64,000 bases of DNA from Streptomyces cathayae (GTDB lineage: Bacteria; Actinomycetota; Actinomycetes; Streptomycetales; Streptomycetaceae): assembly GCF_029760955.1 (NCBI RefSeq), contig NZ_CP121682.1, positions 1,302,001 to 1,366,000 of the forward strand, given 5' to 3'. Shown piece by piece: positions 7,182-32,015 of the stretch. The notes beneath the pieces are model-generated. The model did no database searches, was not told where the DNA came from, and saw only the letters and a list, made by a program, of their open reading frames with translations. Positions within the stretch are counted from its first letter, which is position 1. Each line of letters opens with the position of its first letter. The position numbers and the translations under genes were made by a program.

Positions 7182-7183
7182 CC

Positions 7184-9768: not shown

Positions 9769-9778
9769 AGGAGCCCCC

Positions 9779-13018: not shown

Positions 13019-14245
13019 ATGACCGGTGTGACGACCGCCGACTCCAGCGAGGCCACCCGCCTGCGCCACGAGATCATCGACCAGTTGCGGAACGAGGGCT
13101 GGATCACCTCCGCAGAGGTTGAGGCGGCGATGAAGAAGGTGCCCCGCGACCGGTTCACCCCGCCACAGACGCCGCTGAAGGAGGTGTACGACCCGTACTC
13201 GGCGGTGATCACGAAGACCGATGAGCACGGCGTGCAGATCAGCAGCGTCTCCGCCCCACAGATCCAGGCCATTCAACTGGAGCAGTGCCGGCTCCGGCCC
13301 GGCATGCGGGTCCTGGAGATCGGCTCGGGCGGCCTCAACGCCGCCTACCTGGCCGAGATCGTCGGCCGCGACGGCCGGGTGACCACGGTCGACATCGACA
13401 AGGAGGTCACCGAGCGTGCCACCCGGCTCCTCGCCGAGAACGGCTACGACCAGGTGCGCGTGGTCACGGCGGACGCAGCCGAACCGATCCCTGACCTGGG
13501 CATCGTGGACGTCATCCTGGTCACCGTGGGCGCCTGGGACATCCCGCCCGCCTGGATCGACCAGCTCAGCCCCACCGGCCGGCTGGTCGTGCCGTTGCGC
13601 ACGCGCGGTCTGACCCGCTCCGTGGCCCTCACCCGCGCCGGCGATCACCTTGAGTCGCGCTCCGCGAAGATCTGCGGCTTCGTTCCCATGCAGGGCTCCG
13701 CCGGGCACGAGGAGCAGCTCCTCCTGGTGAACGGCACACCGGAGATCGGCCTGCGCTTCGACGACGGCCTGCCCATCGACCCGAGCCGGCTCGACAACGC
13801 CGTCACCACACCCAGGGTCGAGAGGTGGACCGGTGTGACCATCGGCCGACAGGAGCCACTGGCCACGCTCCAGATGCACCTGGCGATCACCATTCCGGGG
13901 TTCTGCATCATGGCCGTCGACGAGGATCTGGACACCGGCATCGTGACGCCGAACCGCAAGGGCTTCTCGCTCGCCGCCGCCGAAGACGACTCCTTCGCCT
14001 ACCTCGTACACCACCCCTTTGGGGACAAGGACGTCGAGTACGGCGTCCACGCCCTGGGCAATCACGCGCAGCAGCTCGCCAAGAAGATCGCCAAGAGCCT
14101 GCGCGACTGGGAGGCCCACCGCCGCGGCGGGCCCGTCCCGGTCATCCGGGTCTACCCGGCCGGCACCCCCGACGAGCAGATCGAGGGCGACCGGGTCATC
14201 GACAAGGTCCACACCCGGATCTCGCTCTCCTGGCCCGCGACCTAG
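13019..14245 (+). CDS. FxLD-system PIMT-like methyltransferase
   Basis: This 408-residue protein is related to protein-L-isoaspartate O-methyltransferase. SSVSAP (residues 75-80) is followed by the SAM motif RVLEIGSGGLNAAY (about 97-110), VTTVDIDKEV (motif II) and DVILVTVGAWDIP. The long C-terminal half carries CGFVPMQG and ends in RISLSWPAT, characteristic of the FxLD lanthipeptide methyltransferase family. Relatives in class I lanthipeptide clusters (LanSA, for example OlvSA) methylate a core Asp, which cyclises and opens to isoaspartate. The precursor gene lies 57 bases downstream and offers an Asp-Gly site. A paralogous domain occurs in the 23130-25808 protein. Confidence 0.85.
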   Translation: MTGVTTADSSEATRLRHEIIDQLRNEGWITSAEVEAAMKKVPRDRFTPPQTPLKEVYDPYSAVITKTDEHGVQISSVSAPQIQAIQLEQCRLRPGMRVLEIGSGGLNAAYLAEIVGRDGRVTTVDIDKEVTERATRLLAENGYDQVRVVTADAAEPIPDLGIVDVILVTVGAWDIPPAWIDQLSPTGRLVVPLRTRGLTRSVALTRAGDHLESRSAKICGFVPMQGSAGHEEQLLLVNGTPEIGLRFDDGLPIDPSRLDNAVTTPRVERWTGVTIGRQEPLATLQMHLAITIPGFCIMAVDEDLDTGIVTPNRKGFSLAAAEDDSFAYLVHHPFGDKDVEYGVHALGNHAQQLAKKIAKSLRDWEAHRRGGPVPVIRVYPAGTPDEQIEGDRVIDKVHTRISLSWPAT

Positions 14246-14301: not shown

Positions 14302-14496
14302 ATGAGTCCCACCGCCGCCCTGATGGACCGGCCGACGCAGCTCGTCGAGGACGACGACTTCGCCCCGCTGGAGGTCAAGGCCATCGTCGCCGCCCACCCG
14401 ATCGGCAAGCTGATGTGTTCCACGGGTGACGGCTGCGGGAGCACCTGCTCGGGCAGCTCGTCCGCGTGCAGCTCCTTCATCGAGGACCCGGCCTGA
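14302..14496 (+). CDS. lanA: FxLD-type class I lanthipeptide precursor
   Basis: This 64-residue peptide starts at ATG 14302 with aaggagag about eight bases upstream. The leader is acidic and holds the FxLD-box variant DDDFAPLEV (residues 17-25), the likely LanB/LanC recognition element. The core after about residue 30 has four Cys (39, 45, 49, 56), many Ser/Thr, one Asp-Gly pair (43-44) and the tail SSFIEDPA. The arrangement LMCSTGDGCGSTC recalls other FxLD peptides. It should yield up to four (methyl)lanthionine rings. It lies between the methyltransferase and lanB genes. Confidence 0.9.
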   Translation: MSPTAALMDRPTQLVEDDDFAPLEVKAIVAAHPIGKLMCSTGDGCGSTCSGSSSACSSFIEDPA

Positions 14497-14585: not shown

Positions 14586-17500
14586 ATGGCCTTGGACGTT
14601 CCCAGATACCAGTGGACGGGCGCCGCCGTCCTACGGGCCACCACCGGCCCGAGCACCGCAGTCCTGCCCGCGGCCCTTGATCTGGACAGCGCGGACGCCG
14701 TCCGTGACTGGCTCGCCAAGCTGTGGCAGCGCGCCGAGATACGCAACGCCCTCTTCGCCGCCAGCCCCGTGCTCTGCCAGACCATCGACAACATCGTGCA
14801 CGGCCGCCACGACCAGCCCCGCCAGCTCCGCCGCGCCGCGCTGTCGGTCATCTCCTACCTGTTGCGGTGGCAGCACCGGCCCGCCCCCTTCGGGCTGTTC
14901 GCCGGTACCGCACCGCTCACCATCGGCACCACACCCCGCGTGCGCTGGGGCCCGCGCCACGCGGTCACGCTGCGCGCCGACGGCGAGTGGCTCAGCGACG
15001 TCGTCCGCGACCTGGAGCAGCAGCCCGCCCTCCTGGAGCGCCTGATGGTCATCGCCAACAACACCGCCGAGTTCCGCGGTGACCGGCTTGCCGCTCCTGG
15101 CCCGCCGGCCGACGGCCACGCCCGGTTGATGGCCCCGGTCGAAATCTCCCTGCGCGCGACCCGGCCGGTGAAGGCGGCCATGGAGCACGCCCGCACGCCG
15201 ATCACCTACGCCGCACTCCGCGACCTCCTCACGACCGCGTTCCCGGCCGGCGCGGGAGGCAAGATCGACGCGGTCCTTCAGGACCTGATCGAGCAGAACG
15301 TCCTCATCACCAGCCTCTGTCCCCCGATGACCACGGTCGATGCCCTCGACCACGTGTGCGCCGAGCTGAAGCGAGTCGACGCGCACTCCCTCCCCGACGT
15401 CGGCGGGCTCGCGCGCACCCTGTACGGGCTGCGCGACGACCTCACCGCGCACACCAGCCCGTCCGCCGAGACGGACCTGCGTGAACTGACGGCGCGAATG
15501 CACCGGCACTCGTCCATCGCGCCCCTGCCCGTGGTCGTCGACACCGCCCTGAACTGCGAGGTGCAACTGCCCGGAGAGGTCATCCAGGAGGTAGAGGACG
15601 CGGTCGCCGTCCTGCACCACGTGAGCCCGCTGCCGTACGGCTACAAGCTGTGGCGTGACTACCACCGTCGCTTCCGTGCCCGGTACGGGGTCGGCGCTGT
15701 CGTCCCCGTCCTCGACCTGGTCGCCGACAGCGGCCTGGGCCGGCCCGCCGAATACGTCGGCTCCGAGCGCGGCAAAGCCCCAAAGACGATCAGCGACCGC
15801 GACACGGTCGTCCTCAAACTCCTGCAACAAGCACACATGGAAGGCCGCGACGAACTCGTCCTCGACGACGCGGCGATCAGCGAACTCGCCGAGGCGGCCG
15901 GCACCGAGGAACGTCTCTACGGCGAGGGCAGCGAGATCGCCTTCGAAGTCCACGCGCCCTCCACGCACCACCTGGCCGACGGCAGGTTCGACATCGAGAT
16001 CACTGGCGTGCCCCGCCCCGGCAGCAGCATGCTCGGGCGCTTCGCGCACCTGATGCCCACCGCCGAACAGCACCTGCTCACGGACTCCTACGTGACCCGG
16101 CCGGACGTCATCACCGCCCAGCTCTCGTTCAGCCCCAGGCGCCGCCGCAACGAGAACGTGGCCCGCACCGATCGCCTGCTGCCGTACGTGATCCCGCTCG
16201 GCGAGCACCCCGGCGAGCACGGTGAACCGATCCCGCTGGACGACATCGGTGTCACGGCGGACGCCCGCCGCTTCCACCTCGTGCAGGTCTCCAGCGGGCG
16301 CCCGATCGACGTGCGGGTCCTGCACGCGCTGGAGGCCGGTATCCAGACGCCGCCGCTGGCTCGGTTCCTGTCCGAGGTCTCCGGCAGCCGGCGGGCGGTG
16401 TACAAGCGGTTCGACTTCGGCGCGGCTGCCCGCCTGCCGTACCTGCCCCGCGTGCGCTATCGCCGCACCACCCTGGCCCCGGCCCGTTGGTTGCTCAGCA
16501 GCAAGGACCTCCCCGGCCGCAAGGCACCGGTCGAGGAGTGGGAGGCGGCATTCGCCGTGTGGCGCGCACGGCTGAACGTCCCCAGCCGTGTCTGCGTGGT
16601 CGAGTACGACCAGCGACTCCCGGTCGACCTCGACCATCCCGCGCACCGTCGCCTCGTGCGTTCGCAGCTCCACGAAGCCCCGGAGCTGGAGCTGCGCGAG
16701 GTCGTGGACCCGGCCCGGTACGGGTGGATCGGCCGGGCCCACGAGATCCTGCTGCCCCTCCGTCGCGCCACCCCCGCCGTCTCGAGCACGCCGCTGCCCG
16801 CCTTCCGCGCGCAGCCCGTCCCAGCCGTACAACTCCCTGGCTGTGGCGAGGTGCTGAGGATGCGTCTGCATGCCCATCCGGACCGGTTCGACGAGATCCT
16901 GGACCGGCACGTTCCGCGCCTGCTCGACGTGCTCGGCCAGCCGATGTGGTGGTTCTCTCGGCACCGAGAACTCGCCCGCCCCGAAGCCGGCCAGCACCTC
17001 ACGGTCACCTTGCACCTTCCCGAGGCCGCCGCGGCCACGGCCACGGTGAACCGCTGGGCGACGGACCTGCATCTCCAACGCCTGCTGTCCGCGCTCACCC
17101 TGGAGCCGTACCAGCCCCAGACCGGCCGCTACGGAACAGGGCCGGCCATGGACGCTGCGCACCGCGCCTTCGCGGCCGACTCCAGCGCCGCCCTCGCCCA
17201 GATCCGCCTCACCACCCGTGGCGCCGTCCTCTCCCAGGCGCTCACGGCCGCGAGCCTGGCCGACCTCGCCACACACCTGCTCGCGTCCGAGGACGCCGCA
17301 TGGGACTGGCTGATCCAGAACACCCCGGCCCACGGTCGCCCCGACCGCACTGTGCGCGTCCAGGCCATCCAGCTCTACGCCACCCGTCAGCGGCTCGCCG
17401 AACACGGCGCCGCCGAACTCGGCGAGGGGTGGGCCGTACGCTCCACCGCCCTGGCCAAGTACCGGAAGGCCCTCATCACGGCAGAGCGTGAGCCGACCAC

Positions 17501-17630
17501 GGTCCTCCGGTCCCTGCTCCATCACCACCACGTACGCGCCATGGGCGTCGGCCCCGCTACCGAGGCCGCCACGCTGCACCTCGCCCGGACGATCGCCTTA
17601 CGCCACCGCCCCGTCAAGGCTCCGCGATGA
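14586..17630 (+). CDS. lanB: Class I lanthipeptide dehydratase LanB, full length
   Basis: ATG 14586, with ggaaggg upstream, gives 1014 residues, the usual LanB size; the longer frame would overlap the precursor stop. The N-terminal two thirds match the tRNA-Glu-dependent glutamylation domain (LLRWQHRPAPFGLFAG, RYGVGAVVPVLDLVADSGLG, LPYLPRVRYRRTTLAPARWL). The last ~270 residues form the SpaB_C elimination domain (ILDRHVPRLLDVLGQPMWWF, TVTLHLPEAA). It should glutamylate and then dehydrate core Ser/Thr. The stop overlaps lanC by four bases. The cluster also encodes a separate elimination-type protein, which is redundant on paper. Confidence 0.92.
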   Translation: MALDVPRYQWTGAAVLRATTGPSTAVLPAALDLDSADAVRDWLAKLWQRAEIRNALFAASPVLCQTIDNIVHGRHDQPRQLRRAALSVISYLLRWQHRPAPFGLFAGTAPLTIGTTPRVRWGPRHAVTLRADGEWLSDVVRDLEQQPALLERLMVIANNTAEFRGDRLAAPGPPADGHARLMAPVEISLRATRPVKAAMEHARTPITYAALRDLLTTAFPAGAGGKIDAVLQDLIEQNVLITSLCPPMTTVDALDHVCAELKRVDAHSLPDVGGLARTLYGLRDDLTAHTSPSAETDLRELTARMHRHSSIAPLPVVVDTALNCEVQLPGEVIQEVEDAVAVLHHVSPLPYGYKLWRDYHRRFRARYGVGAVVPVLDLVADSGLGRPAEYVGSERGKAPKTISDRDTVVLKLLQQAHMEGRDELVLDDAAISELAEAAGTEERLYGEGSEIAFEVHAPSTHHLADGRFDIEITGVPRPGSSMLGRFAHLMPTAEQHLLTDSYVTRPDVITAQLSFSPRRRRNENVARTDRLLPYVIPLGEHPGEHGEPIPLDDIGVTADARRFHLVQVSSGRPIDVRVLHALEAGIQTPPLARFLSEVSGSRRAVYKRFDFGAAARLPYLPRVRYRRTTLAPARWLLSSKDLPGRKAPVEEWEAAFAVWRARLNVPSRVCVVEYDQRLPVDLDHPAHRRLVRSQLHEAPELELREVVDPARYGWIGRAHEILLPLRRATPAVSSTPLPAFRAQPVPAVQLPGCGEVLRMRLHAHPDRFDEILDRHVPRLLDVLGQPMWWFSRHRELARPEAGQHLTVTLHLPEAAAATATVNRWATDLHLQRLLSALTLEPYQPQTGRYGTGPAMDAAHRAFAADSSAALAQIRLTTRGAVLSQALTAASLADLATHLLASEDAAWDWLIQNTPAHGRPDRTVRVQAIQLYATRQRLAEHGAAELGEGWAVRSTALAKYRKALITAEREPTTVLRSLLHHHHVRAMGVGPATEAATLHLARTIALRHRPVKAPR

Positions 17631-18853
17631 TCACAGCCCACGACCGGGCGCAGACCCTGGCCCATGAGTACGCCGCACACCTCGCACGCCCGAGCGGACC
17701 GGTAGAAGACCAGCCGTGGCTCGGGCAGTCCCTCGCCGAGGGCGCCGCCGGCATCGCCCTGCTCCACATCGAACGCGCGACGCACGGCCATGCGCCGTGG
17801 AGCACCGCGCACCACTGGATCGGACAAGCCGCGGCCGGGGACATCACCGCCGCCGACACCACCGGGCTGTACCTCGGCGCCCCCGCGCTCGCCTTCGTCC
17901 TGACGACCGTCCCCGACTCCAGGGATCATCTCTACCGGGGCGCCCACGACACCCTGCACGCACACGTCGCAGCCCTCGCGCATCGCCGCGTGGACGCCGC
18001 GCTCGCACGCCTCCACCGCGGCGCATCAGCCACCTTTGCCGAATACGACACCTTCTACGGACTCACCGGCATCGGCGCCTACCTGATGCGCAGCGCCCCG
18101 GACAGCAGCGCCATGGAACGCGTCCTGCGCTACCTCATGACACTGGCCCAGCCGCTGACCGGCGACTGCGGCCCCACGCCCGGGTGGTGGGTCGACCACG
18201 ATCCCCAGCGCCGCGACACCCTGGCGGGCGGGCACGGCAACTTCGGCGCCGCCCACGGCATCACCGGCCCCCTGCTCCTCTTGGCCCGGGCCGAGCGCCG
18301 CGGCATTCGTGTCGACGGACAAGCCGATGCGATCCGCACGATCTGCGATCACCTCGACACCTGGAAGCAGGACAGCGACACCGGTCCGTGGTGGCCCGAA
18401 CACCTCACGCTCGCCGACCTCAAGGCCGGCCGGCCCCACCAACGCCATCCCGGACGGCCGAGCTGGTGCTACGGCACGCCCGGCATCGCGCGGGCCGGGC
18501 AGCTCGCCGGGATCGCACTGGGCGACCAGGACCTCCAGCGCAGCTACGAGGACGCCCTGTACCGGTGCCTCACCGATCCCGTGCAGCTCGGCAAGATCAT
18601 CGACACGAGCCTGTGCCACGGCTGGGCGGGGGTCTACCAAACCGTCTTCCGCGCAGCACACGACGCCAGCACCCCGCAGCTCGACGCCCTCCTGCCGGAA
18701 CTGCGCGAGAGCCTGACCATCCATGCCCGAGGTGCCTCAGCCAAGGGACCCGGCTTCCTGGAGGGCGACGCCGGCTGCGCCCTCGCCCTCACCACCGCCG
18801 CCGCCAACCAGCCCCCGACCACCGGATGGGACGCATGTCTGCTGATCAGCTAA
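17627..18853 (+). CDS. lanC: Lanthipeptide cyclase LanC
   Basis: This 408-residue alpha/alpha-barrel zinc enzyme shows the LanC ligands: Cys281 in SWCYGTPG, and Cys330-His331 in LCHGWAG. GHGNFGAAHGITGPLLLLA is the usual HG-rich helix turn. It should add Cys thiols to dehydrated residues to make lanthionine rings in the precursor. It is translationally coupled to lanB (ATGA), and its 3' end overlaps the next gene by 19 bases. Confidence 0.92.
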   Translation: MITAHDRAQTLAHEYAAHLARPSGPVEDQPWLGQSLAEGAAGIALLHIERATHGHAPWSTAHHWIGQAAAGDITAADTTGLYLGAPALAFVLTTVPDSRDHLYRGAHDTLHAHVAALAHRRVDAALARLHRGASATFAEYDTFYGLTGIGAYLMRSAPDSSAMERVLRYLMTLAQPLTGDCGPTPGWWVDHDPQRRDTLAGGHGNFGAAHGITGPLLLLARAERRGIRVDGQADAIRTICDHLDTWKQDSDTGPWWPEHLTLADLKAGRPHQRHPGRPSWCYGTPGIARAGQLAGIALGDQDLQRSYEDALYRCLTDPVQLGKIIDTSLCHGWAGVYQTVFRAAHDASTPQLDALLPELRESLTIHARGASAKGPGFLEGDAGCALALTTAAANQPPTTGWDACLLIS

Positions 18854-19857
18854 CCCCTGTTACCTGGCCGCCGACCCCCGACCCGGTCGGACAAGCCGTC
18901 CGCCAGGTTCTGGCCGGACACCCGATCACCGAGGTCGCCCAGCACGCGGGTATGGAGCCGATTGCGCTCTCCGACGCGGCCGAGGTGTTCCAGCAGGCGG
19001 GGAACGAAGCCCTCGCACGCCACGAACTCCGCACCGACTGGACACAGTTCTACGTGGAATTCGCCGACTGGGGCGACGCCGAGTCGGCCGCGGCCGCGCA
19101 CCTCGCGCCGATGCTGAACAGCCTGGAGGATCGCGGCGCGCTTTCGTCGTGGTGGTTCATCCGTAAACATCCCTGCTGGCGGCTACGCCTCTACGGCTGC
19201 CCTGACTCCCCGGCGCACACCGAGCTCACCACCCACCTGAACAAGCTGGTCAAGGCCGGGCACCTTCGGCGCTGGTGGCCGGGGATCTACGAGCCCGAGA
19301 CCGCGGCCTTCGGCGGCCGCGCAGGCATGCTCGCCGCGCACGCCCTGTTCTCCGCCGACAGTCACCACCTTCTCGCCGGGCACAGCCGTAGCAACGTTCC
19401 CATCGGCCGCCGGGAACTGTCCGTCATCCTGTGCACGGTCATGATGCAGGCGGCCGGGCTGGAGTGGCAGGAACAGGGCGACGTCTGGGACCGCGTGATC
19501 AACGAGGAGCACCGCTCCGTTACCGGAGAGGTCCTCGAAGACCGGCTGGAGGGGATGACCCGGCAGATCCGTCAGCTTCTGACCAGCCAGACCAGCCCGA
19601 ACGGGCCGCTGTTCGGTCCGCAGGGCCCGCTCCATCCCGTCGCCGAATGGGCGGCGGCCTTCCGGAGCACCGGCAACGCCCTGAAGGAGGCGGTCGCCTG
19701 TGGCTCCCTCGACCGGGGCATCCGCAGGGTGCTCGCCTACCACGTGATCTTCCACTGGAACCGCGCCGGCCTGTCCCTCGGTGCGCAAAGCGCCCTCGCG
19801 CTCGCCGCCCGCGCCGCCGTCCTCGACCCGCCCCCGCCGGGACCCGAGATTGCTTGA
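18835..19857 (+). CDS. Stand-alone thiopeptide-type/SpaB_C elimination-domain protein
   Basis: ATG 18835 gives 340 residues. A short helical N-terminal part (VGQAVRQVLAGHPITEVAQH) is followed by the thiopep_ocin/SpaB_C fold: DWTQFYVEFADWGDAESAAA, SSWWFIRKHPCWRLRLYG, the ETAAFGGRAGMLAAHALFSA block and ELSVILCTVMMQAAG. In split systems such proteins remove glutamate from glutamylated Ser/Thr. Here a full LanB with its own elimination domain is present too, so this protein may assist, be specialised or have another role. FxLD clusters commonly carry such a gene. Confidence 0.85.
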   Translation: MSADQLTPVTWPPTPDPVGQAVRQVLAGHPITEVAQHAGMEPIALSDAAEVFQQAGNEALARHELRTDWTQFYVEFADWGDAESAAAAHLAPMLNSLEDRGALSSWWFIRKHPCWRLRLYGCPDSPAHTELTTHLNKLVKAGHLRRWWPGIYEPETAAFGGRAGMLAAHALFSADSHHLLAGHSRSNVPIGRRELSVILCTVMMQAAGLEWQEQGDVWDRVINEEHRSVTGEVLEDRLEGMTRQIRQLLTSQTSPNGPLFGPQGPLHPVAEWAAAFRSTGNALKEAVACGSLDRGIRRVLAYHVIFHWNRAGLSLGAQSALALAARAAVLDPPPPGPEIA

Positions 19858-20161: not shown

Positions 20162-22051
20162 GTGACTGTGACTGCCGCCCCGACCGAAACCCCAAGGACG
20201 CCTCCCCCTCCACCGCCGGCCACCATCAGCTTCGAGGGCAGGTTCGGCCAGAACCCGCTGGAGGACGCCGGCTTCGGGACGATGTGCCGACGCCTGCCCT
20301 CCGTACTGGCCCACACCGCGCGCAAGGCATGGGCCGTCGACAGGACCGGCTCCGTCCTCCTCCTCGTATGCCAGGTGCTCACCGGCGTCGCCGCTGCTGT
20401 CGTCCTGGCCTCCACCGCCCGCGCCATGACGCACGTCCTCGGCGGCGGCACCGTTTCCGAACGTCTGCACGGCGCGGTCCCCGCCTTGATCGTGGTGACC
20501 CTGGCCGCGGGCACCGGCCGGATCTGCGGCCTCCTGTCCTCGTACGCGGACGGACGCATCACGCCGCTGTTGACCACCGAAGCCGACGTCGCGCTCGTCT
20601 CCGCCGTGCTGCGTGTGGAGTCGTCCGCCTACGGGAGAGACGGTTTCTCCGACCAGCAGGAGGCGGCCGAGATCGGGGTCACCCGCACCCGCCTGATGGT
20701 GCAGGACGCGCAGCGGTTCATGTCCGCCCTGGTCCGCATGATCGCCGCCGGCGGGGTCATCACCGCACTGCATCCGCTGATGCTGCCGGTGCTCCTCCTG
20801 GCCGTGCTGCCCGCCGGGGTGGGGGCCGTGCTGTCGGCCCGTGTCGACTACCGCACGCACTTCCTCAACCTCGGCGACCGCAACGTACGGGCCATGATGC
20901 GCAGTTGGGCCACCCACTCCCGCTTCGGCGACGAGGTCCGCGCCAACGGCATGACCGGCTACCAGATCCACTGGTACCAGGCCCTGTCCGACCGCATCGA
21001 CCGACGCACCCTCGAAGCGGCGCCGCAGATGCTGCGCATCCAGTTGTCCACCAGCGCCCTGGGCGGCTTCTTCCTGATGTGCACCTGGGCCACCCTCGCC
21101 GGTCTCTCCGTCACCGGCCGCATCGCCCTGCCCGTCGCGGCCACCGCGGTGGTCGCCGTCCAGAGCGCGCTCGCCGCGCTCTCCCAGCTCGTCATCAACG
21201 GCGCCGCCCTGTTCCACACCTCGCTCTACCTCGCCGACATGCGGGCGTTCCTCGGCCTCGCTCACGAACGCGCCCCGAAGCGGGGTGAGCTGACGATCCC
21301 GGAACATGTCGACGAGATCCGTATCGAGGAGGCCGTCTACCACTACCCCGGCAAGGAGGATCCGGCCGTCGCGGGGATCTCCCTGACCCTGCGCCGCGGT
21401 GAGATCCTGGCCGTCGTCGGCGCGAACGGTTCCGGCAAGTCCACCCTGACCAGACTCATCACCGGGATCGTGCTCGCCGACAAGGGGCGCGTCCTGTGGG
21501 ACGGCGTCGATCTCGCCGACGCCGACCCCGACGCTGTGTGGAGCCGCACCTCACTCGTTCCGCAGAACTTCGCGTGCTGGCCGTTGCGGGCCCGCGAGAA
21601 CATCACCCTGGGCCAGCCCCGCACCCACGACGACGAGCCGGTGTGGGACGCCATCGACGCCGTCGGCATGCGCGAGGAGATCGAGAGGCTGCCCCGCCGA
21701 CTCGACACCCTCCTGGCCCGAGAGCTGTTCGGCGGCGCCGAACTGTCGGGCGGTCAGTGGCAGCGGCTCGTGTGTGGCCGCGCGCTGTACCGGCAGACGC
21801 CGCTCATGATCCTGGACGAGCCCACCTCGCAGATGGACGCCCGCGGCGAGCACGCGATCTTCACGCAGATCAAGCGCCTGGCACCCCAGTGCATGACGAT
21901 CGTCGTCACGCACCAGCTGGAGAACACCCGGCTCGCCGACCGCATCCTCGTGATGGACGAAGGCCGCGTCGTCGAACAGGGCGCGTACGACGACCTGGTG
22001 AACGCCGGCGGCCAGTTCGCCGACCTCGTCGCCCTGGCCAAGGACCGCTGA
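20162..22051 (+). CDS. ABC exporter, fused TMD-NBD (lanthipeptide export candidate)
   Basis: GTG 20162 (ggaggga upstream) gives 629 residues. An N-terminal proline-rich stretch leads into five or six membrane helices up to about residue 370 (SVLLLVCQVLTGVAAAVVLA, LMLPVLLLAVLPAGVGAVL). The ATPase domain follows: Walker A GANGSGKST near 420, signature LSGGQWQR near 530, and Walker B LMILDEPTSQMD near 550. It is a half-transporter likely to work as a homodimer. It has no N-terminal peptidase domain, so leader removal must be done elsewhere. It begins the second half of the cluster. Confidence 0.88.
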   Translation: MTVTAAPTETPRTPPPPPPATISFEGRFGQNPLEDAGFGTMCRRLPSVLAHTARKAWAVDRTGSVLLLVCQVLTGVAAAVVLASTARAMTHVLGGGTVSERLHGAVPALIVVTLAAGTGRICGLLSSYADGRITPLLTTEADVALVSAVLRVESSAYGRDGFSDQQEAAEIGVTRTRLMVQDAQRFMSALVRMIAAGGVITALHPLMLPVLLLAVLPAGVGAVLSARVDYRTHFLNLGDRNVRAMMRSWATHSRFGDEVRANGMTGYQIHWYQALSDRIDRRTLEAAPQMLRIQLSTSALGGFFLMCTWATLAGLSVTGRIALPVAATAVVAVQSALAALSQLVINGAALFHTSLYLADMRAFLGLAHERAPKRGELTIPEHVDEIRIEEAVYHYPGKEDPAVAGISLTLRRGEILAVVGANGSGKSTLTRLITGIVLADKGRVLWDGVDLADADPDAVWSRTSLVPQNFACWPLRARENITLGQPRTHDDEPVWDAIDAVGMREEIERLPRRLDTLLARELFGGAELSGGQWQRLVCGRALYRQTPLMILDEPTSQMDARGEHAIFTQIKRLAPQCMTIVVTHQLENTRLADRILVMDEGRVVEQGAYDDLVNAGGQFADLVALAKDR

Positions 22052-22075: not shown

Positions 22076-22471
22076 ATGACCGACACCTGGCAGACGATCG
22101 CGGACCTCGCCGACCGCCTCGACGACCACTCCACGCTCCCCCGCGAACAGCGAGTCCTCTTCCACCTCCTCAAGATCCAGGAGGAGGCCGGCGAAGTCGC
22201 CGAAGCCGCCATCGGCGCAGCCGGGCAGAACCCCCGCAAGGGCCACTCCCACACCTGGCAGGACGTCGAATCCGAGGTCTGCGACGTCATCGTCACCGGC
22301 ATGGTCGCCCTGATGCGTATGAACCCCAACGCGGAGGCGGTCTTCGCCCAGCACATGCAGCGCACCGCGGACCGCGATCCGAGCCGGCCCGGGAGGACAG
22401 CCGCCAGCCACTCCTCGCACGCGCAGTTCCCACACCCGGGCGGTGCGCCGAGCACCTCCGAACCCGCCTGA
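22076..22471 (+). CDS. MazG-like all-alpha NTP pyrophosphohydrolase
   Basis: This 131-residue protein carries the metal-binding helices of the MazG fold: EEAGEVAEA (E36, E37, E40) and ESEVCDVIV (E67, D70). MazG-type enzymes hydrolyse NTPs or dNTPs to monophosphates and act as housekeepers or in alarmone control. The last ~35 residues are a disordered Ser/Pro-rich tail. It lies 24 bases after the transporter, in the same operon. Its place in a lanthipeptide cluster beside two NUDIX-containing proteins suggests a shared nucleotide-related theme. Confidence 0.82.
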   Translation: MTDTWQTIADLADRLDDHSTLPREQRVLFHLLKIQEEAGEVAEAAIGAAGQNPRKGHSHTWQDVESEVCDVIVTGMVALMRMNPNAEAVFAQHMQRTADRDPSRPGRTAASHSSHAQFPHPGGAPSTSEPA

Positions 22472-22491: not shown

Positions 22492-23091
22492 ATGGTCCAC
22501 ACGTCACAAGACGCCCGAGCAAGCGGAGCGTACGAAGCAGGCGAGGCCGGCGCATACTGGGAGCCGCTGTGGCAATCCGACCGCCGCTATCGGAGCATGG
22601 ACGCGCCGGAACACGAAGCCCTGAACCGGCAAGTAAGCCTCGGTCGAGGGAGGCCGGCGCTCGACATCGGCTCCGGCGACGGGGCACTCGTGCAGGCCCT
22701 CGCCGAACTCGGCTACCGGCCGACCGGGATCGACTGCGCACCCAGCGCGCTCTCCACCGCCCGTCGCGAGCACCCCGGCCTTGACTTCAGGCACTTCGAC
22801 TTCGACACCGACGACCTGGCCGACCTGCCCGAACCGGCGTTCACGCTCATCACCTGCCGACTGGTCTACCGCTGGGTCCAGGACAAGCACGCCTTCCTGT
22901 CCCGGGTGCGGCAACTCCTCGCCCCCGGCGGCATCTTCTGGGTGGCCACTTCCGTACGCAGCCCCCGGCACGACGAAGCCAAACCGTGGGAGATCGAGGT
23001 CACAGAGGTGGAACTCCTCACCGCCAGCTGGAGCCGTGCGGACGTGACACAGCTCGACGAGTCGTACCACTGCTTCGCCCTGCACCCCTGA
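22492..23091 (+). CDS. Class I SAM-dependent methyltransferase
   Basis: ATG 22492 with ggaagga upstream gives 199 residues. Motif I is PALDIGSGDGALVQAL, followed by TGIDCAPSALSTAR and then FTLITCRLVYRWVQDKHAF and LLAPGGIFWVA. It is a small free-standing Rossmann methyltransferase of the Methyltransf_11/25 type. The substrate could be the peptide or a nucleotide-related compound; nothing in the sequence decides. It starts 21 bases after the MazG gene and 39 bases before the four-domain fusion gene. Confidence 0.85.
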   Translation: MVHTSQDARASGAYEAGEAGAYWEPLWQSDRRYRSMDAPEHEALNRQVSLGRGRPALDIGSGDGALVQALAELGYRPTGIDCAPSALSTARREHPGLDFRHFDFDTDDLADLPEPAFTLITCRLVYRWVQDKHAFLSRVRQLLAPGGIFWVATSVRSPRHDEAKPWEIEVTEVELLTASWSRADVTQLDESYHCFALHP

Positions 23092-23129: not shown

Positions 23130-25808
23130 GTGACGACTCCGCCCACCACCGAACTCGACGAAGCGAGCGAGCCACGCCACCGGCTCGCCGACCAACTCCA
23201 CGCAGCCGGCCACATCCGCACCACCGCGGTCGAGAACGCCTTCCACACCGTGCCCCGGCACGCCTTCGCCCCCGACGTCCCGATCCACAAGGCGTACGCC
23301 AACGACATCATCCCCACCCACCACACAGCCGACGGTCGAATCATCAGTTCCGTGTCCGCTCCATGGCTCCAGGCCGACATGCTCGAAGCCGCCCGCATCC
23401 GGCCCGGCCACCGCGTCCTGGAGATCGGCTCCGGCGGCTACAACGCCGCCCTCATCGCCGAACTCGTCGGCCCCACCGGCAGCGTCACCACCCTCGACAT
23501 CGACCCGGCCGTCACCGACCACGCCGCCCGATTCCTCGCCGAAACCGGATACGACCGCGTCCGCGTGGTCACCGCCGACGCCGAACACCTCCACGCCGGC
23601 ATCGTGCCGGACGGCGGCTTCGACACCATCCTGGTCACCGTCGCCACCTGGGACCTTCCCTGGATCGACGCTGTCGCCGACGGCGGACGTCTCGTCGCCC
23701 CGCTGCGCCTGCACCAGTACACCTGGGCCATCGGCTTCACCAGGCGCGACGGGGCCCTGCACAGCGACGAGCCGCTCATCGTCTGCGGCTTCGTCGCCAT
23801 GCAGGGCGACGGCGCCTGGAACACGGACCGGCGCACCGTCCCGGGCACCGGCGTTCACCTGTCCTGGGAGGACGGCACCCCACTGCCCGTCGACCAGCTC
23901 GAACCCGCCCTCACCCGCGAACCGGTCGTGGCGCACACCCACGTCACCGTCGGCGGCCAGGAGCCCTTCGACGCCCTCACCCTCTACCTGGCCGGAGCCC
24001 TGCCCGGCTTCTGCCGCCTCTCGGTCGACCCCGACGGCAACAACGGAATCCTCAACCCGCCGCCCCGGCACTGGCCCGGCGCCGCGATCGTCCGCGGCCC
24101 CTCCCTCGCGCGCCTGGCCACCGAACGCATCTCCGACGGAGACGACGGCAACGGCCTGTACGAGCTGGTCGTCCACGGCTACGGGCCCCACGGCCACCTG
24201 GCCGCCCAGGAGATGACCGAACAGGTCCAACACTGGCAGCGCAACCACCGCGCCGCCCTCTGCCCGCGGATCACCGTCCATCCCCTGGCCGACGGTGGTC
24301 CCGCGACCGTGACCGACGATCCGCACGTCTTCGTCAAGAAGCGCACCCGCGTCGTGATCGACTGGCCGATCGTTCCCGGCACGGCGGCCCTGCTCACCGA
24401 CGCCGAACGCTCGCTGCTCGCCGCACATGTGCCGCCCGCTGCCGGGGGACGGGCTCTCGATGTCGGGTGCGGCACCGGCGAACTCGCCGCACACCTGTCC
24501 TCGGCCGGGTACACCGTGGACGCCGTCGACCGGTCCGAGACCGCCCTCGCCGAAGCCAGCTCCCGCCACGGCGGGGCCGCTCGATGGCTCCGTCTCGACA
24601 TCGAGGAGGACGACGGGGCCGCACTGCACGGCGACGGCTACGACCTGATCACCCTGCGATTCGTCGCTCCGTTCCTCAGCTCCCGCGCCCACACCCTGGA
24701 CGCGCTGGGCCGGCGGCTGCGGCCGGGCGGCACCCTCGTGATCATCACCCCGCTCGCCGTCGACACCCCCGCCGCACGGCGCGGTATCGCCCTCGCCGAG
24801 GACGAGCTTGAACGCCTACAGAGCCGGTGGGCGGCAGCGGAGCGACACGACGCCGACGGGCTGGTCTTCCTCGTCCTGCGTGGGCCGCGCCAGGACGAGA
24901 CCGCCCCGCACCTCGCGGCGCAGCACACGCCGTCGAGTGCACACAACGGGGAAGGAGACGCCCCCCGGCGCCGGCACCACTTCCACCTCTTGGGGCGCTA
25001 CTACGCGCAGGTGGAGTCGGGACGCAAGACGATCGAGGTCCGCGTCGCCACCCCCGAGAAGGCGGCCGTCGAAGTCGGGGACGCCATCGTCTTCCACGAC
25101 CGGGACAGCGACCGGGAACTCGACATCGTCGTGAAGCGGATCACCACGTACGGCTCGTTCGAGGACCTGCTCAGCGCGGAGGACCCCACCCGTATCGACC
25201 CGGACGGCCGGCGCGAGGAACTGCTCGCCAGCCTCCGCAGCATCTATCCGCCAGCCAAGGAGGCGCTCGGCGCCCTCGCCCTCGAGTTCGACCACCGTCC
25301 CGCACGGCCCGGCCGTCCCATGCCGATGACCCCGTCGCAGTACGCGCAGACCGTTCCCCACCACACGGTGTACGGCTGCCTGTACGTCCGTGACGAGCAC
25401 GATCGGCCGGTGCAGCTGCGCTCGGTCTACGGATCCCGGCTCTGGCAGTTCCCCGGCGGCAACCTCGACGTGCAAAGGGAGGACCCACTCCAGACCGCCC
25501 GGCGCGAAGCGGTCGAAGAGACCGGTCTCGAACTCGGCCCGGAAACGCCAAGGCTGCTGCTGACGCACTTCCTGCACGCCGGGCCCCGGATGCCCTTGAA
25601 CAAGGTGGGTCTCATCTTCGACGGAGGCCGGCTCAGCGCGGACCGGCTCGGCCGGATCCGCCTCGATCCTGCGGAGCACGACATGTGGGCCGCCCACGAC
25701 CTTGCCGACTGGCAGGAGTTGATGGCGCCCCTGGCCTTCGCCCGTCTCGACGCCGTCGAACGAGCCCGGCGCGGCGAAGGCCCGGCCTACCTCATCACGC
25801 ATACCTGA
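23130..25808 (+). CDS. Four-domain fusion: FxLD PIMT-like methyltransferase + methyltransferase + ASCH + NUDIX
   Basis: GTG 23130 opens an uninterrupted 892-residue frame. Residues 1-415 are a second FxLD methyltransferase (SSVSAP 73-78, RVLEIGSGGYN about 95-105, CGFVAMQG, ending in RVVIDWPIV). Residues 430-595 are another Rossmann methyltransferase (GRALDVGCGTGELAAHL, LRPGGTLVIITP). Residues 615-720 look like an ASCH domain (LGRYYAQVESGRKTIEVRV, VEVGDAIVFHD). Residues 730-892 are a NUDIX hydrolase whose box (GGNLDVQREDPLQTARREAV then EETGLEL) has one extra residue between the Gly and the first Glu. ASCH domains are thought to bind RNA. The reading frame and codon use are constant, so a real fusion is likelier than an assembly artefact. 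Confidence 0.85.
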   Translation: MTTPPTTELDEASEPRHRLADQLHAAGHIRTTAVENAFHTVPRHAFAPDVPIHKAYANDIIPTHHTADGRIISSVSAPWLQADMLEAARIRPGHRVLEIGSGGYNAALIAELVGPTGSVTTLDIDPAVTDHAARFLAETGYDRVRVVTADAEHLHAGIVPDGGFDTILVTVATWDLPWIDAVADGGRLVAPLRLHQYTWAIGFTRRDGALHSDEPLIVCGFVAMQGDGAWNTDRRTVPGTGVHLSWEDGTPLPVDQLEPALTREPVVAHTHVTVGGQEPFDALTLYLAGALPGFCRLSVDPDGNNGILNPPPRHWPGAAIVRGPSLARLATERISDGDDGNGLYELVVHGYGPHGHLAAQEMTEQVQHWQRNHRAALCPRITVHPLADGGPATVTDDPHVFVKKRTRVVIDWPIVPGTAALLTDAERSLLAAHVPPAAGGRALDVGCGTGELAAHLSSAGYTVDAVDRSETALAEASSRHGGAARWLRLDIEEDDGAALHGDGYDLITLRFVAPFLSSRAHTLDALGRRLRPGGTLVIITPLAVDTPAARRGIALAEDELERLQSRWAAAERHDADGLVFLVLRGPRQDETAPHLAAQHTPSSAHNGEGDAPRRRHHFHLLGRYYAQVESGRKTIEVRVATPEKAAVEVGDAIVFHDRDSDRELDIVVKRITTYGSFEDLLSAEDPTRIDPDGRREELLASLRSIYPPAKEALGALALEFDHRPARPGRPMPMTPSQYAQTVPHHTVYGCLYVRDEHDRPVQLRSVYGSRLWQFPGGNLDVQREDPLQTARREAVEETGLELGPETPRLLLTHFLHAGPRMPLNKVGLIFDGGRLSADRLGRIRLDPAEHDMWAAHDLADWQELMAPLAFARLDAVERARRGEGPAYLITHT

Positions 25809-27899: not shown

Positions 27900-28814
27900 G
27901 TGAAGACAGAGTTGGACTCCCTCGCCATCGCACTCTATGTGAAGACCGACGACCTGCTGAAGGCATCACCGCATCTGGCTCCCTGGCGTCCGGCCATCGG
28001 GATCGCTCCGCAACTGACCGATGCTGAGCTGGTCACGCTCGCGATGATGCAGGCCATGCTGGGCTTCACCTCCGAGGCCAAGTGGCTTCGCTATGCCCGC
28101 GCCCACCTGCGGCATCTCTTCCCCTACCTGCCAAAGCAGCCCGGCTACAACAAGCGCCTGCGCAAGGCCGCCGAGCTGCTGCGGCGGGTCACCCGGGTGC
28201 TGGCCACCGACACCTCGGTATGGAGCGACGACGTGTGGATCGTGGATTCCACGCCGGTGGAGTGCGGGCGTTCCCGCGAGACCGTCAAGCGCTCCGACCT
28301 GGCCGGATGGGCCGAGTACGGGCACTGCGCCAGCCACAGCCGCTTCTTTTGGGGCCTGCGCCTGCACCTGGTGTGCACCCTGCAGGGCCTGCCGATCGCC
28401 TTTGCCCTGACCGGGGCCAAGGCCGATGAACGCGAGACTCTGCTGGACCTGCTCGCCGCCGAACCGGGCCTGACCGCCGCCCGGCCCGGACAGACGCTGA
28501 TCGGTGACAAGAACTACTTCGGCCGCGACTTCGAGCACCAGTTGGCCGAGCAGGACATCCGGCTGCTGCGGCCGGCCCGCAAGGGCGAGGCGGAACGGCC
28601 CGGTGCCTCGCTGTTCAAGCCGTTGCGGCAGGTGATCGAGTCGGTCAACGAGTCCTTCAAGGGCCAACTCAACCTCGAACAGCACCGAGGCCGTACACCG
28701 GGCGGCGTGATCGCCCGTGTCATGCAGCGCATCCTCGCGTTGACCTCCGCGATCTGGCACAACGACCACACCGGCCAGCCCGTCCTTCGCTCACTGACCG
28801 CCTACGACCACTAA
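27900..28814 (+). CDS. IS982-family transposase
   Basis: GTG 27900 starts a 304-residue intact transposase. DDE candidates are the Asp of VWIVDSTPVECGRSRE, the Asp of TLIGDKNYFGRDF and a Glu in VIESVNESFKGQLNLEQH. The SRFFWGLRLHLVCTLQGLP block is typical of actinobacterial IS982 elements. The size and a roughly 1-kb element fit the family. It lacks frameshifts and could be active. Confidence 0.88.
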   Translation: MKTELDSLAIALYVKTDDLLKASPHLAPWRPAIGIAPQLTDAELVTLAMMQAMLGFTSEAKWLRYARAHLRHLFPYLPKQPGYNKRLRKAAELLRRVTRVLATDTSVWSDDVWIVDSTPVECGRSRETVKRSDLAGWAEYGHCASHSRFFWGLRLHLVCTLQGLPIAFALTGAKADERETLLDLLAAEPGLTAARPGQTLIGDKNYFGRDFEHQLAEQDIRLLRPARKGEAERPGASLFKPLRQVIESVNESFKGQLNLEQHRGRTPGGVIARVMQRILALTSAIWHNDHTGQPVLRSLTAYDH

Positions 28815-28819
28815 CCACA

Positions 28820-28843
28820 GACCCCTTGGAATCGATCATCTAG
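28820..28843 (-). repeat. IS982-type terminal repeat, right
   Basis: The sequence gaccccttggaatcgatcat plus ctag is the inverted partner of both left-type ends. The regulator gene at 28854-30167 ends only ten bases away. Confidence 0.8.
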
Positions 28844-28853
28844 GACGCACACG

Positions 28854-30167
28854 TCAGGCCGCCGCGAGCGTCAGGAGCGCGTCGACTCCCTCTGCGGCGT
28901 GCACTCGCTGGAACTGGGGGACGAGGTCCTGGACCAAATGCTCGCAGCGTGGGGCGCTGATTCGGCGGGCGAGTACCAAGGCTTCGCCGGCGGCGGCTGC
29001 GGCGAGTTCCGGTTCGCCGAGCTTGAGGTGGCTGGCGGCCTGGTAGGCGAGGAAGACGCCTCGGGTCTTGTCGCGGGCCGCAGGCAGCAGGGCTTGCCCT
29101 TCGGTGATCAGCTGGTGGGCGCGGGCGGTGTCGCCGAGATCGAGGAGGTACTGGCCGGAGTCGACGGCGAGGTCGGCCTCGGACATCCACGAGCACCAGG
29201 GCGGCAAGGGCCGGGTGGTCGACGCTCCCAGGAGTTGTTCGGCCACGGTGAGAGATCGCCGCGCGTCCTTGCCGTTGCCCTGGGCTGCGAGTGCACGGGC
29301 CAGGCGCAGGTTGAGCAGGGACTTCGCGGCGGGGTGCTCGGTGCGGGTGAGGGCGTGGGTGAGGATGCCGACGGCGGTGGTGTGGTCCTGGCGCCAGGCT
29401 GCCTGGTAGGCCAGGTCCCCGAGCATGGCGGCGCCCATGTCGTGGTCGCCGGTGGCGTGGGTGCTGTGCAGGGCGGCGACCCAGTGCTTGGTTGCCGCCG
29501 TGTGCAGACCGTGGTCGAATCGATGCCACGCGACGGTCTGGGAGAGGGAGGCTGCCAGCGAGTGCAGGCGGTTGCCGATCGGCCGGGTGAAGCGGCCGTG
29601 CTCAATGAGATCGGTGACCGTCGCGAGGTGGGCATCGAGGAGCATGGCCAGGTGCTGGCGCTGCTCGGTGGCGACCGAGCTGAGCTTGCGGGTGCTGTCT
29701 TCGAGCATGGTGACGAGATCGTCCCCCACGCTTCTGGCACCGCCGGCGGCAGCGAGGGCGGGCACGACCCCGGTGTCCGCCCAGGCGGCGGCAAGGCCGG
29801 TCAGGACGGTGCCCGAAACGGTGAGGAAGGCACGGCGGTCCATGGTGCTGATGAGGGCCTCCCGGAGGGCGGGCACTGTGCTGGCGGGACCGAGAGCGAC
29901 GACGCCCGACTCGTCCCAGTGAAGCCAGTTCGGCCAGTTCCCCGGGTCGACCGCGTCAGTCGGCATGCCGAGGGCCTCGGCAAGATAGTGCTGGTTGTCG
30001 GCGTCCGGAGTCACACCCAGGACCTCCCACTTGCGCAACCGGGCCTTGTCGGTGCCCGAGCGCAGGCCCCGGCGGGCTGCGGCGGCGCGGATCTTGGCCG
30101 CCAGGTCAGGGCGAGTCAGCCCTCGTTGCGACCGGGCGTACGTGAGCGGGTGGGTGAACTGGTCCAC
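28854..30167 (-). CDS. XRE/TPR-type transcriptional regulator
   Basis: GTG 30167 is chosen because recognisable sequence starts there: FTHPLTYARSQRGLTRPDLA, then a basic helix-turn-helix region to about residue 70. The remaining ~360 residues are TPR-like helices. A segment resembling a twin-Arg/lipoprotein-like start (DRRAFLTVSGTVLTGLAAAW), common inside this family, is present. It is about 437 residues long and has the same architecture as the 2409-3905 regulator. It is divergent from a gene start at 30267 that is now interrupted by an IS, its likely regulatory partner. Confidence 0.75.
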   Translation of the reverse strand: MDQFTHPLTYARSQRGLTRPDLAAKIRAAAARRGLRSGTDKARLRKWEVLGVTPDADNQHYLAEALGMPTDAVDPGNWPNWLHWDESGVVALGPASTVPALREALISTMDRRAFLTVSGTVLTGLAAAWADTGVVPALAAAGGARSVGDDLVTMLEDSTRKLSSVATEQRQHLAMLLDAHLATVTDLIEHGRFTRPIGNRLHSLAASLSQTVAWHRFDHGLHTAATKHWVAALHSTHATGDHDMGAAMLGDLAYQAAWRQDHTTAVGILTHALTRTEHPAAKSLLNLRLARALAAQGNGKDARRSLTVAEQLLGASTTRPLPPWCSWMSEADLAVDSGQYLLDLGDTARAHQLITEGQALLPAARDKTRGVFLAYQAASHLKLGEPELAAAAAGEALVLARRISAPRCEHLVQDLVPQFQRVHAAEGVDALLTLAAA

Positions 30168-30266
30168 CTCGACATCAAAGCACCGTCCACCTCCCTTCGC
30201 CCTTGCTTCGATGCAGCGGGACTCCTGCGGGACTCCCGGCAAATTCTGTACGGATAAGCACAGTTG

Positions 30267-30366
30267 ATGGAGTCTCAAATACCTGCCCGAGCGGCAGAGG
30301 CGGCTCTGGAAGATGCGCTCGCACACGTTCGCTGCGATGTCGTCGAGGGGCTCGCCGCCAGCCCTA
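30267..30366 (+). pseudogene. 5' part of a gene interrupted by the first IS630 element
   Basis: ATG 30267 opens MESQIPARAAEAALEDALAH, then VRCDVVEGLAASP, and meets the IS at the TA 30365-30366. Joining across one TA to 32051 continues the frame as SFEDPTYLNGTGASCVAD. The gene is divergent from the XRE regulator. The family is not recognised. The 3' part is further cut after about 32095, where sequence convergent with the DUF6461 remnant begins. Confidence 0.6.
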
Positions 30367-30399
30367 AGTGGTCTGCTTCGTAAGTCCTTCGGGGGTTGA
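30365..30399. repeat. Left inverted repeat of first IS630 element
   Basis: It starts taagtggtctgcttcg and pairs with 32016-32050, with three mismatches in 35. Confidence 0.88.
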
Positions 30400-30429
30400 C
30401 GTTGGAGCTTGCCGTGCACTTACCCGCGG

Positions 30430-30769
30430 TCAGGTGCCGAGGCCGGTGAGGTGGAGGTGGCAAGCGGTGTCGAGAGCGTCCTCGGGGGGGGGTGCCACTG
30501 CCGCTGCCGATGGGCAGCAGGGCGTCCTGATAGCGGTCGCCGGCCGCGTCGTACAGGGCGAAGCCCCAACGGTTCGCGGTGCCGTGGAAGCGCAGGCGCA
30601 TCAGCTTGACGCTCCCGCTGCCGGCCAGTTCGCCCTGGACGTAGGCGTACTGGCCCCGGTGGCGGACCCGCAGGCCGGCCAGCCGCGGCCAGGCGGCCTT
30701 GGCGCGCATGTTCAGGTACAGCTCAAGCTGAAGCCGGGTGTGTTCCGAGGGCGTGGGCACAGCGGACAT
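30430..30769 (-). pseudogene. IS630-associated small protein, frameshifted in a nine-G tract
   Basis: The frame from 30769 reads SEHTRLQLELYLNMRAKAAW, PRLAGLRVRHRGQYAYVQGE, the LMRLRFHGTANRWGFALYDA block and AGDRYQDALLPIGSGSGTPP. It then runs through nine G (30484-30492, C on the coding strand) into Arg/Pro noise. With eight, it would continue EDALDTACHLHLTGLGT and stop at 30430. The protein would be about 112 residues and rich in basic beta-strand segments, of unknown role. It lies wholly inside the IS, opposite to the transposase. A homopolymer sequencing error is possible. Confidence 0.65.
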
Positions 30770-30837
30770 CCTGCCGCAGGGCCGGGGTGCGGGGTGCGGC
30801 AGGATGCGGCCTGTCCTGGTCCACTTTCGTGATCGGC

Positions 30838-32015
30838 GTGTCCGCCTTGCCCGTTGCCCGCGCCCGCCCGATAGCCCTGACCGCCTCGGAACGTGAGCGG
30901 CTGAAGAAGATGGCCTACGGCCACAGGATTGAGCACCGGATCCGTCAGCGCGCCCAGATCGTTCTGCACGCCGCCCGGGGCCGCCCCAACGCCCGGATCG
31001 CTCGCGAGACCGGGCTGCACCTGGACACCGTCCGCACCTGGCGCGGCCGCTTCGCCGAGCACCGGCTGCCGGCTCTGTCCGACCGCAAGCGGTCCGGCCG
31101 GCCGGCCACCTTCACGCCGCTGCAGACCGCGCAGGTCAAGGCCCTGGCCTGTCAGCTGCCCGCCAAGAGCGGGGTGCCGCTGTCCCGCTGGTCGGCCCCG
31201 GAACTGGCCCGCGAGGTCGCCGCCCGCGCCATTGCCGGCGCGATCTCCGCTTCCACCGTGCGCCGCTGGCTCAAGGAGGACGCGATCAAGCCCTGGCAGC
31301 ACCAGCCCTGGATCTTCATCACCGACCCCGTCTTCCGGCCCAGGGCCGAACGCGTGCTCGGCCTGTACGCCCGCACCTGGGGCGGCGTCCCGCTCGGCGC
31401 GGACGAGTACGTGATCAGCGCCGACGAGAAGACCTCCATCCAGGCCCGCTGCCGCTGCCACCCCACCCTGGCCCCGGGCCAGGCCAGGGCGATGCGGGTC
31501 AACCACACCTACGACCGCGGCGGCGCCCTGGCCTACCTGGCCGCCTACGACGTCCACCGCGCACAGGTCTTCGGCCGCTGCGAGCCGAGAAAACCGGCAT
31601 CGACCCGTTCATGGCCTTGGTCGCCCAGGTCATGAGCACCGAGCCGTACGCCGGGGCCAAGCGCGTGTTCTGGATCGTGGACAACGGCTCCTCCCACCGC
31701 GGCCGGAAGGCCGCCGACCGGCTGACCGCCGCGTTCCCGAACGCCGTCATGGTCCACACCCCGGTCCACGCCTCCAGGCTGAACCAGGTGGAGATCTACT
31801 TCTCCGTCGTACAGCGCAAGGCCGTCTCACCCAACGACTTCACCGACCTCGACGAGGTCACAGACCGGCTCCGAGCGTTCGAAGACCGCTACAACGCCAC
31901 GGCACAGCTGTTCCAGTGGAAGTTCACCACCTCCGACCTGGACGATCTGCTGGCCAGGCTCGACCGGCACACCGCCGATCACCCAGAAGAATCCTCCGTC
32001 GCCCTGGCCGCCTGA
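30838..32015 (+). pseudogene. IS630-family transposase with internal -1 frame change
   Basis: The first frame (GTG 30838 to 31635) carries the paired HTH (RIARETGLHLDTVRTWRGRF) and the first catalytic Asp (YVISADEKTSIQARC). The second frame, reached by a -1 shift at an AAAA run (31590-31593), carries the remaining DDE motif (RVFWIVDNGSSHRGRKAADR, HTPVHASRLNQVEIYFSVVQ). Either one A has been lost or the element uses a programmed shift. The joined protein would be about 390 residues. Serine-for-Trp in HASRLNQ is a further deviation from the common HASWLNQ. Confidence 0.75.

Follow-up and report, generated by a model that had tools for sequence, protein, structure and literature searches.

Results

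A fusion gene downstream of an FxLD lanthipeptide cluster

We analyzed a window of 64,000 nucleotides from Streptomyces cathayae (contig NZ_CP121682.1, positions 1,302,001 to 1,366,000 of the forward strand), the numbering of which is used throughout. A class I FxLD lanthipeptide cluster lies upstream of the gene studied here. The lanthipeptide genes are followed on the plus strand by an ABC transporter, a MazG-like protein, the methyltransferase MT3, the fusion gene and MT4-NUDIX, in this order.

13019..14245, plus strand: FxLD1, the lanthipeptide cluster's canonical FxLD methyltransferase, encoded as a stand-alone protein (TIGR04364, 535.6 bits)
14302..14496, plus strand: FxLD-family lanthipeptide precursor of 64 aa, leader DFAPLEV, core MCSTGDGC... 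(TIGR04363, 49.3 bits, cut-off 30)
14586..17630, plus strand: LanB dehydratase, start inferred (Lant_dehydr_N, 689.6 bits; Lant_dehydr_C, 99.2 bits)
17627..18853, plus strand: LanC-like cyclase (LANC_like, 127 bits)
18838..19857, plus strand: stand-alone LanB elimination-domain protein (Lant_dehydr_C, 95.2 bits; TIGR03891, 191.9 bits)
20162..22051, plus strand: ABC transporter, start inferred
22076..22471, plus strand: MazG-like protein (51% identity in 94 residues with a protein that is annotated as MazG-like and neighbors a fused FxLD gene)
22492..23091, plus strand: MT3 methyltransferase, a relative of which is fused to FxLD2 in locus L049
23130..25808, plus strand: fusion gene, an open frame of 892 aa
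25840..27042, plus strand: MT4-NUDIX, a second methyltransferase-NUDIX fusion and the next gene 3' of the fusion gene

The precursor shares 69% identity with the peptide at the same position in locus L043. The MazG-like protein matches the Pfam MazG model at just 14.6 bits, under the cut-off of 22. Immediately 5' of the lanthipeptide cluster (5820-11011) are genes for a GTP-binding protein and two P450-like proteins, a set that we take to be conservon-like. Just 3' of the region, an IS982-family transposase and a split transposase pair, presumably IS630-like, occupy 27900-32015, as if the locus had been rearranged.

The fusion gene runs from a GTG codon at 23130 to a TGA ending at 25808. As the initial annotation had claimed, these 892 codons form a single frame uninterrupted by stops. 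A few bases 5' of the start is an AAAGG sequence, and G+C at the three codon positions (0.76/0.51/0.87, computed from 22986) follows the pattern of a real gene. The same annotation had read the protein as an FxLD methyltransferase, a second methyltransferase, an ASCH domain and a NUDIX domain, and in our domain search each of the four scored above its curated cut-off. The observation of a four-domain fusion in one open frame is confirmed.

Domains of the fusion protein

23163..24365, plus strand: FxLD2, an FxLD-type (PIMT-like) methyltransferase including its C-terminal domain, residues 12-412 (NCBIfam TIGR04364, "methyltransferase, FxLD system," model positions 1-394, 378.6 bits, cut-off 320; PF01135, residues 17-223, 107.7 bits, cut-off 20.3)
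24393..24401, plus strand: fusion junction CTC ACC GAC, residues 422-424, the same 9 bases being in frame in both parent genes of locus L052
24456..24743, plus strand: MT2, a second Rossmann methyltransferase, residues 443-538, lacking the first 20 codons of the unfused gene (Methyltransf_25/12/11, 76.1/69.3/69.1 bits, cut-offs 27/30/21.2)
24996..25289, plus strand: ASCH domain, residues 623-720 (PF04266, 27.1 bits, gathering cut-off 21.2; nearest solved structure by sequence, 1xne)
25020-25043, plus strand: GRKTIEVR motif in ASCH, residues 631-638
25359..25709, plus strand: NUDIX domain, residues 744-860 (PF00293, 36.4 bits, gathering cut-off 21.1; nearest solved structure by sequence, 1mk1)
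25455-25526, plus strand: NUDIX box, residues 776-799, containing REAVEE

FxLD2 passes the curated cut-off of the FxLD/LanSA methyltransferases (TIGR04364; OlvSA; RiPP-associated PIMTs, PAMTs), and its nearest solved structures by sequence are PIMTs. MT2 scores as a class I SAM methyltransferase. In the ASCH domain, GRKTIEVR at residue 631 matches GxKxxExR, the motif of the ASCH superfamily. The NUDIX box is one residue longer before its first Glu than the usual consensus, and it aligns without a gap to 1mk1, the ADP-ribose pyrophosphatase of M. tuberculosis. The nearest solved structures for the ASCH and NUDIX domains are the ASCH protein PF0469 (1xne; E, 1.4e-8) and 1mk1 (E, 3.7e-6), respectively; both are distant from the fusion's domains, and it is not certain that they share the same activity.

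Structure prediction for the whole protein was confident for the PIMT core, MT2 and ASCH, and all 50 rows listed by Foldseek look like methyltransferases. The FxLD C-terminal part and the NUDIX domain were modeled poorly (mean pLDDT, 64), and the structure model is therefore no test of them. Sequence and fold both mark the N-terminus as a PIMT-type enzyme. Taken together, the resemblances to PIMT, NUDIX and ASCH proteins point to a type of reaction rather than to a substrate.

The exact fusion is found in a single Streptomyces genome

We searched 392 Streptomyces genomes, including the window's own, with the DNA of the gene. Matches at an E value of 1e-100 or better were found in 39 genomes, and only in the window's own did they span both halves; two candidates were scored per genome, so a diverged fusion could be missed. 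The four-domain fusion was absent from the matches at an E value of 1e-60 or better in 60 other relatives. At the protein level (120 of 176 matches listed; 7997 best candidates scored), the only cluster that covered the whole query was the window's own. The next-nearest proteins listed were FxLD-NUDIX-NUDIX proteins of 711 to 723 aa, with up to 96% identity to the N-terminal half, and stand-alone Streptomyces MT-ASCH-NUDIX proteins of about 491 aa, with up to 95% identity to the C-terminal half. The latter are annotated as "methyltransferase," as "NUDIX domain-containing protein" or by their domains. Other combinations, among them FxLD-MT and MT-NUDIX-FxLD, lay farther off among the matches listed.

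MT2 at 65% identity or more occurs in 11 distinct loci, and in the 10 others MT2-ASCH-NUDIX is apart from FxLD2; two loci (L056 and L088) have a more distant MT2 (60%) and, instead, MT-NUDIX-FxLD fusions. The C-terminal half was found in 42 named loci, 41 from Streptomyces and one from Actinacidiphila. Apparent additional cases were rejected: the locus of G284 is not one 1301-aa fusion, as stops lie between its genes, and in G107 and G057 a gap of about 85 bases separates the MT-NUDIX-FxLD gene from the ASCH-NUDIX gene. Among the genomes searched, the fusion is local to one Streptomyces.

The initial annotation had described the fusion as apparently new and FxLD methyltransferases as otherwise separate proteins. 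Its first part stood, in that the exact domain order was present in no other genome searched and no description of it was found in the literature searched, most subscription journals lying outside that search. Its second part did not: FxLD-type enzymes are known in fused form, both with LanB elimination domains, as has been reported (PMC7268733), and in 9 of 21 FxLD2 loci, the window's included (see below). The window's protein resembles the reported fusions in joining an FxLD-type methyltransferase to another cluster enzyme and differs from them in its partner domains.

FxLD2 forms a clade of its own within a mosaic operon

PIMT-type methyltransferases are the commonest accessory enzymes of class I lanthipeptide clusters (PMC13001092), and lanthipeptides with such enzymes have been reported to carry a TxDGC core (PMC10787088). 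The window fits this pattern: its cluster has a canonical FxLD/LanSA member, and the core of its FxLD-family precursor contains TGDGC. FxLD2 itself is different. A tree built from 58 FxLD domains placed 22 rows in the FxLD2 group (support, 100/100) and united these with MT-NUDIX-FxLD proteins in a set of 29 rows (100/98); the other 29 rows were canonical and elimination-domain-fused lanthipeptide enzymes and a few others. The tree was midpoint rooted on a convenience sample of rows, with long-branch warnings in both sets. Judged from these sequences, FxLD2 is a separate clade that appears linked to NUDIX and methyltransferase domains and not tied to LanB, unlike the FxLD/LanSA enzymes. One protein, P0106 (885 aa), reads from its sequence as containing two FxLD methyltransferase domains.

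We compared 57 distinct loci (62 less 6 duplicates, plus the window; some come from the same strain). Varying sets of the same blocks recur in them: an ABC transporter, FxLD2, one protein with two NUDIX domains and another with three, (MT2-)ASCH-NUDIX and MT4-NUDIX, as well as a phosphotransferase or P-loop kinase joined to a VanX-like M15 peptidase, an M15 peptidase and another P-loop kinase. The number of NUDIX domains in these loci reached eight, and L141 had nine. ASCH-NUDIX was also found by itself, as well as in fusions with a phosphotransferase or a peptidase, and a LanBC-FxLD1 fusion is present in many loci. Lanthipeptide genes were seen in at least 14 of the 57 loci, a lower bound because the flanks were about 10 kb or less. 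The same layout is seen independently on a plasmid of Streptomyces sp. NBC_01454, in the order LanC, elimination protein, fxlM, ABC transporter, a second fxlM (MT, NUDIX, FxLD), MazG-like, NUDIX, NUDIX. In G107 and G057, which lack LanB, an ABC transporter, NUDIX proteins, MT-NUDIX-FxLD, ASCH-NUDIX and MT4-NUDIX stand in a row. A search with PADLOC for a defense system gave two models only, which matched generic methyltransferase and NUDIX parts. An alignment of 47 rows, in which domain orders were mixed, was set aside for one of 38 rows.

Of 21 distinct loci with FxLD2, 9 join it in frame to a partner, which is NUDIX in seven, a methyltransferase in one and, in the window, MT2-ASCH-NUDIX. A change of frame in L045 breaks the FxLD2 part itself in two. 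The frequency of fusion, together with the place of MT-NUDIX-FxLD in the same operon, means that a tie between peptide methylation and the NUDIX/methyltransferase parts may be selected. The window's fusion might itself be a selected, better-working enzyme that carries out peptide methylation and the clean-up or making of a nucleotide-linked group on one scaffold. MT-NUDIX-FxLD lying right before ASCH-NUDIX and MT4-NUDIX in two genomes, and 3' of the ABC transporter on the plasmid, would agree with this, as would the fact that FxLD2, ASCH and NUDIX show no sign of decay. However, the exact fusion occurs in one genome, it lacks two NUDIX domains as well as the conserved N-terminal segment of MT2, and 12 of the 21 loci keep FxLD2 unfused; we consider this explanation unlikely.

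Several further features of these loci were recorded. A conserved 47-aa frame ending in RPDTRYLA lies 5' of kinase/NUDIX genes in L033, L039-L041, L043, L045, L052, L067, L072 and others, mostly in loci without LanB. As a candidate second precursor it was rejected: dN/dS was 0.47-0.94 in 20 of 21 pairs (the last pair was identical) and changes were even over codon positions, which gives no coding signal. A 370-aa protein without a Pfam match (L034:14679-15791 and relatives) was found in 16 loci, duplicates included, usually between the elimination-domain/FxLD1 gene and the ABC transporter. The L074 locus (S. olivaceus NRRL B-3009) has NUDIX, kinase-M15, ASCH-NUDIX and an MT4-FxLD fusion on one contig. 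PMC7268733 names this strain for the studied Asp methyltransferase, which PMC13001092 calls OlvSA.

The fusion probably arose by deletion

The parental gene order FxLD2-NUDIX-NUDIX, MT2-ASCH-NUDIX, MT4-NUDIX is retained in L052 (S. olivochromogenes), L043 and L139 (S. chartreusis plasmid). In L052, the sequence CTC ACC GAC (CTCACCGAC) is in frame in both parent genes, at sites 1036 bases apart, and the window's sequence passes straight from one parent to the other at this point. Only two codon-aligned 9-mers are common to the L052 FxLD2-NUDIX-NUDIX gene, taken in full, and the opening 40 codons of its MT2 gene; the junction is one of them. Since the junction coincides with a 9-base in-frame match of both parents, a deletion is the likely origin of the fusion. 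The dS values between the window and L052 were alike in FxLD2 (0.206), MT2 (0.223) and NUDIX (0.193), which fits one locus minus an internal piece; ASCH, at 0.104, departs from these three.

If some 1 kb was deleted in the window's lineage, at the shared in-frame sequence of the neighboring genes, the first gene would have lost both its NUDIX domains and MT2 would have lost 20 codons. Stand-alone MT-ASCH-NUDIX proteins have their own gene and begin with a conserved segment resembling MFTTQ(D/E)EWDRGYxxGRRYRPL, which the fusion lacks. This start was seen in nearly all of 25 relatives examined (41 selected); P0015 lacks it and P0022 is longer. As this segment is gone, MT2 may be weakened.

The initial annotation had allowed that the domains might always be separate genes elsewhere and the fusion an artefact of assembly. 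The first half of that proviso proved correct, as every other homologue found has FxLD2 and MT2-ASCH-NUDIX as separate genes. Nevertheless, a natural deletion explains the window better. A repeat of 9 bases is too short to mislead assemblers, and an artefact is improbable because the repeat could not collapse the assembly. In addition, the genome (7.6 Mb) is 100% complete in two contigs, and the 90% cluster of the fusion protein has six member sequences, although these are listed on one contig and may not come from independent genomes. We regard an artefact as very unlikely.

Whether the deletion product is decaying, so that the FxLD part alone or nothing still works, was judged from substitutions. 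The domain families have a median dN/dS of 0.14-0.39, indicating purifying selection. Amino acid changes in the window lineage versus L052 were not in excess for FxLD2 (29 v 29), ASCH (9 v 10) or NUDIX (7 v 8), and for MT2 (14 v 8) they were too few to call decay. Decay would suit a fusion restricted to a single genome, with a microhomology junction, a missing MT2 start of 20 codons and a transposase gene close by. Against it, the frame is fully open, the key ASCH, NUDIX and FxLD motifs are kept, and the rate of amino acid change is not raised, except perhaps in MT2; decay is thus a rather improbable account.

FxLD2 and ASCH-NUDIX occur in genomes without LanB

The initial annotation had raised the hypothesis that an RNA-binding ASCH domain links lanthipeptide modification to LanB's glutamyl-tRNA or nucleotide by-products. 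The setting agrees with this idea: the fusion gene closely follows a complete FxLD lanthipeptide cluster that includes LanB, so that in the window FxLD2 is encoded near both LanB and an FxLD precursor. We searched for Lant_dehydr_N in all 39 genomes that matched the gene's DNA (21 + 18). No such protein was present in 15 of them (8 of the first 21 and 7 of the other 18). Nineteen genomes have a full-length FxLD2. LanB lies within about 8 kb in nine (G000, G116, G203, G216, G253, G262, G284, G325 and G404), is absent from seven (G169, G174, G191, G237, G244, G277 and G332; three are single-contig genomes), and in three is located elsewhere (G117 and G165) or on another contig (G279, where FxLD2 is at a contig end).

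Proximity in 9 of 19 genomes would be far above chance for an 8-Mb genome, so the lanthipeptide link would seem to be real but optional. Conversely, the absence of LanB from 15 of 39 genomes, and from 7 of the 19 with full-length FxLD2, indicates that FxLD2 and ASCH-NUDIX do not depend on LanB or its glutamyl-tRNA. ASCH-NUDIX is found alone or with other partners, such as the phosphotransferase or peptidase, and the NUDIX domain is nearest to an ADP-ribose pyrophosphatase. The proposed coupling is not supported, and we consider it very unlikely. As FxLD2 is fused in 9 of 21 loci, the window's fusion says little about mechanism.

Discussion

On balance, we favor the following explanation, which we hold to be probable but far from assured: a deletion of about 1 kb fused FxLD2-NUDIX-NUDIX to MT2-ASCH-NUDIX, and the parts belong to one accessory pathway, joined by chance or for co-expression and not to process LanB's tRNA by-product. 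That pathway would comprise the ABC transporter, NUDIX proteins, methyltransferases, kinases and peptidase, and probably often rides with FxLD lanthipeptide genes. By analogy with other FxLD/LanSA enzymes, the N-terminal part would methylate an Asp carboxylate in a peptide. In the RiPP PIMT family, this Asp is converted to an aspartimide or isoaspartate (PMC13001092, PMC10787088), and the same products would be expected here. The ASCH-NUDIX part may hydrolyze a nucleoside-diphosphate-linked compound, with ASCH as its binding domain.

The parent genes of the fusion belong to a little-noticed, mix-and-match set of NUDIX and methyltransferase genes, often beside lanthipeptide genes and also in genomes without them. 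We tentatively suggest, as a possibility that we do not think likely, that what the window contains is a derived part of a Streptomyces pathway that has yet to be described. In this pathway the NUDIX-linked clade of FxLD (PIMT-like) methyltransferases would work with an ABC exporter, as many as nine NUDIX domains, ASCH, methyltransferases, kinases and a VanX-like peptidase, whether or not lanthipeptide enzymes are present, and would make or neutralize a peptide with a phosphate- or nucleotide-derived group.

The fusion shows how a mosaic operon is remodeled through small deletions, and the substrate of the operon is a more interesting question than the fusion itself. A second PIMT clade that is accompanied by many NUDIX domains and occurs in genomes without LanB suggests that these enzymes serve a different pathway as well.
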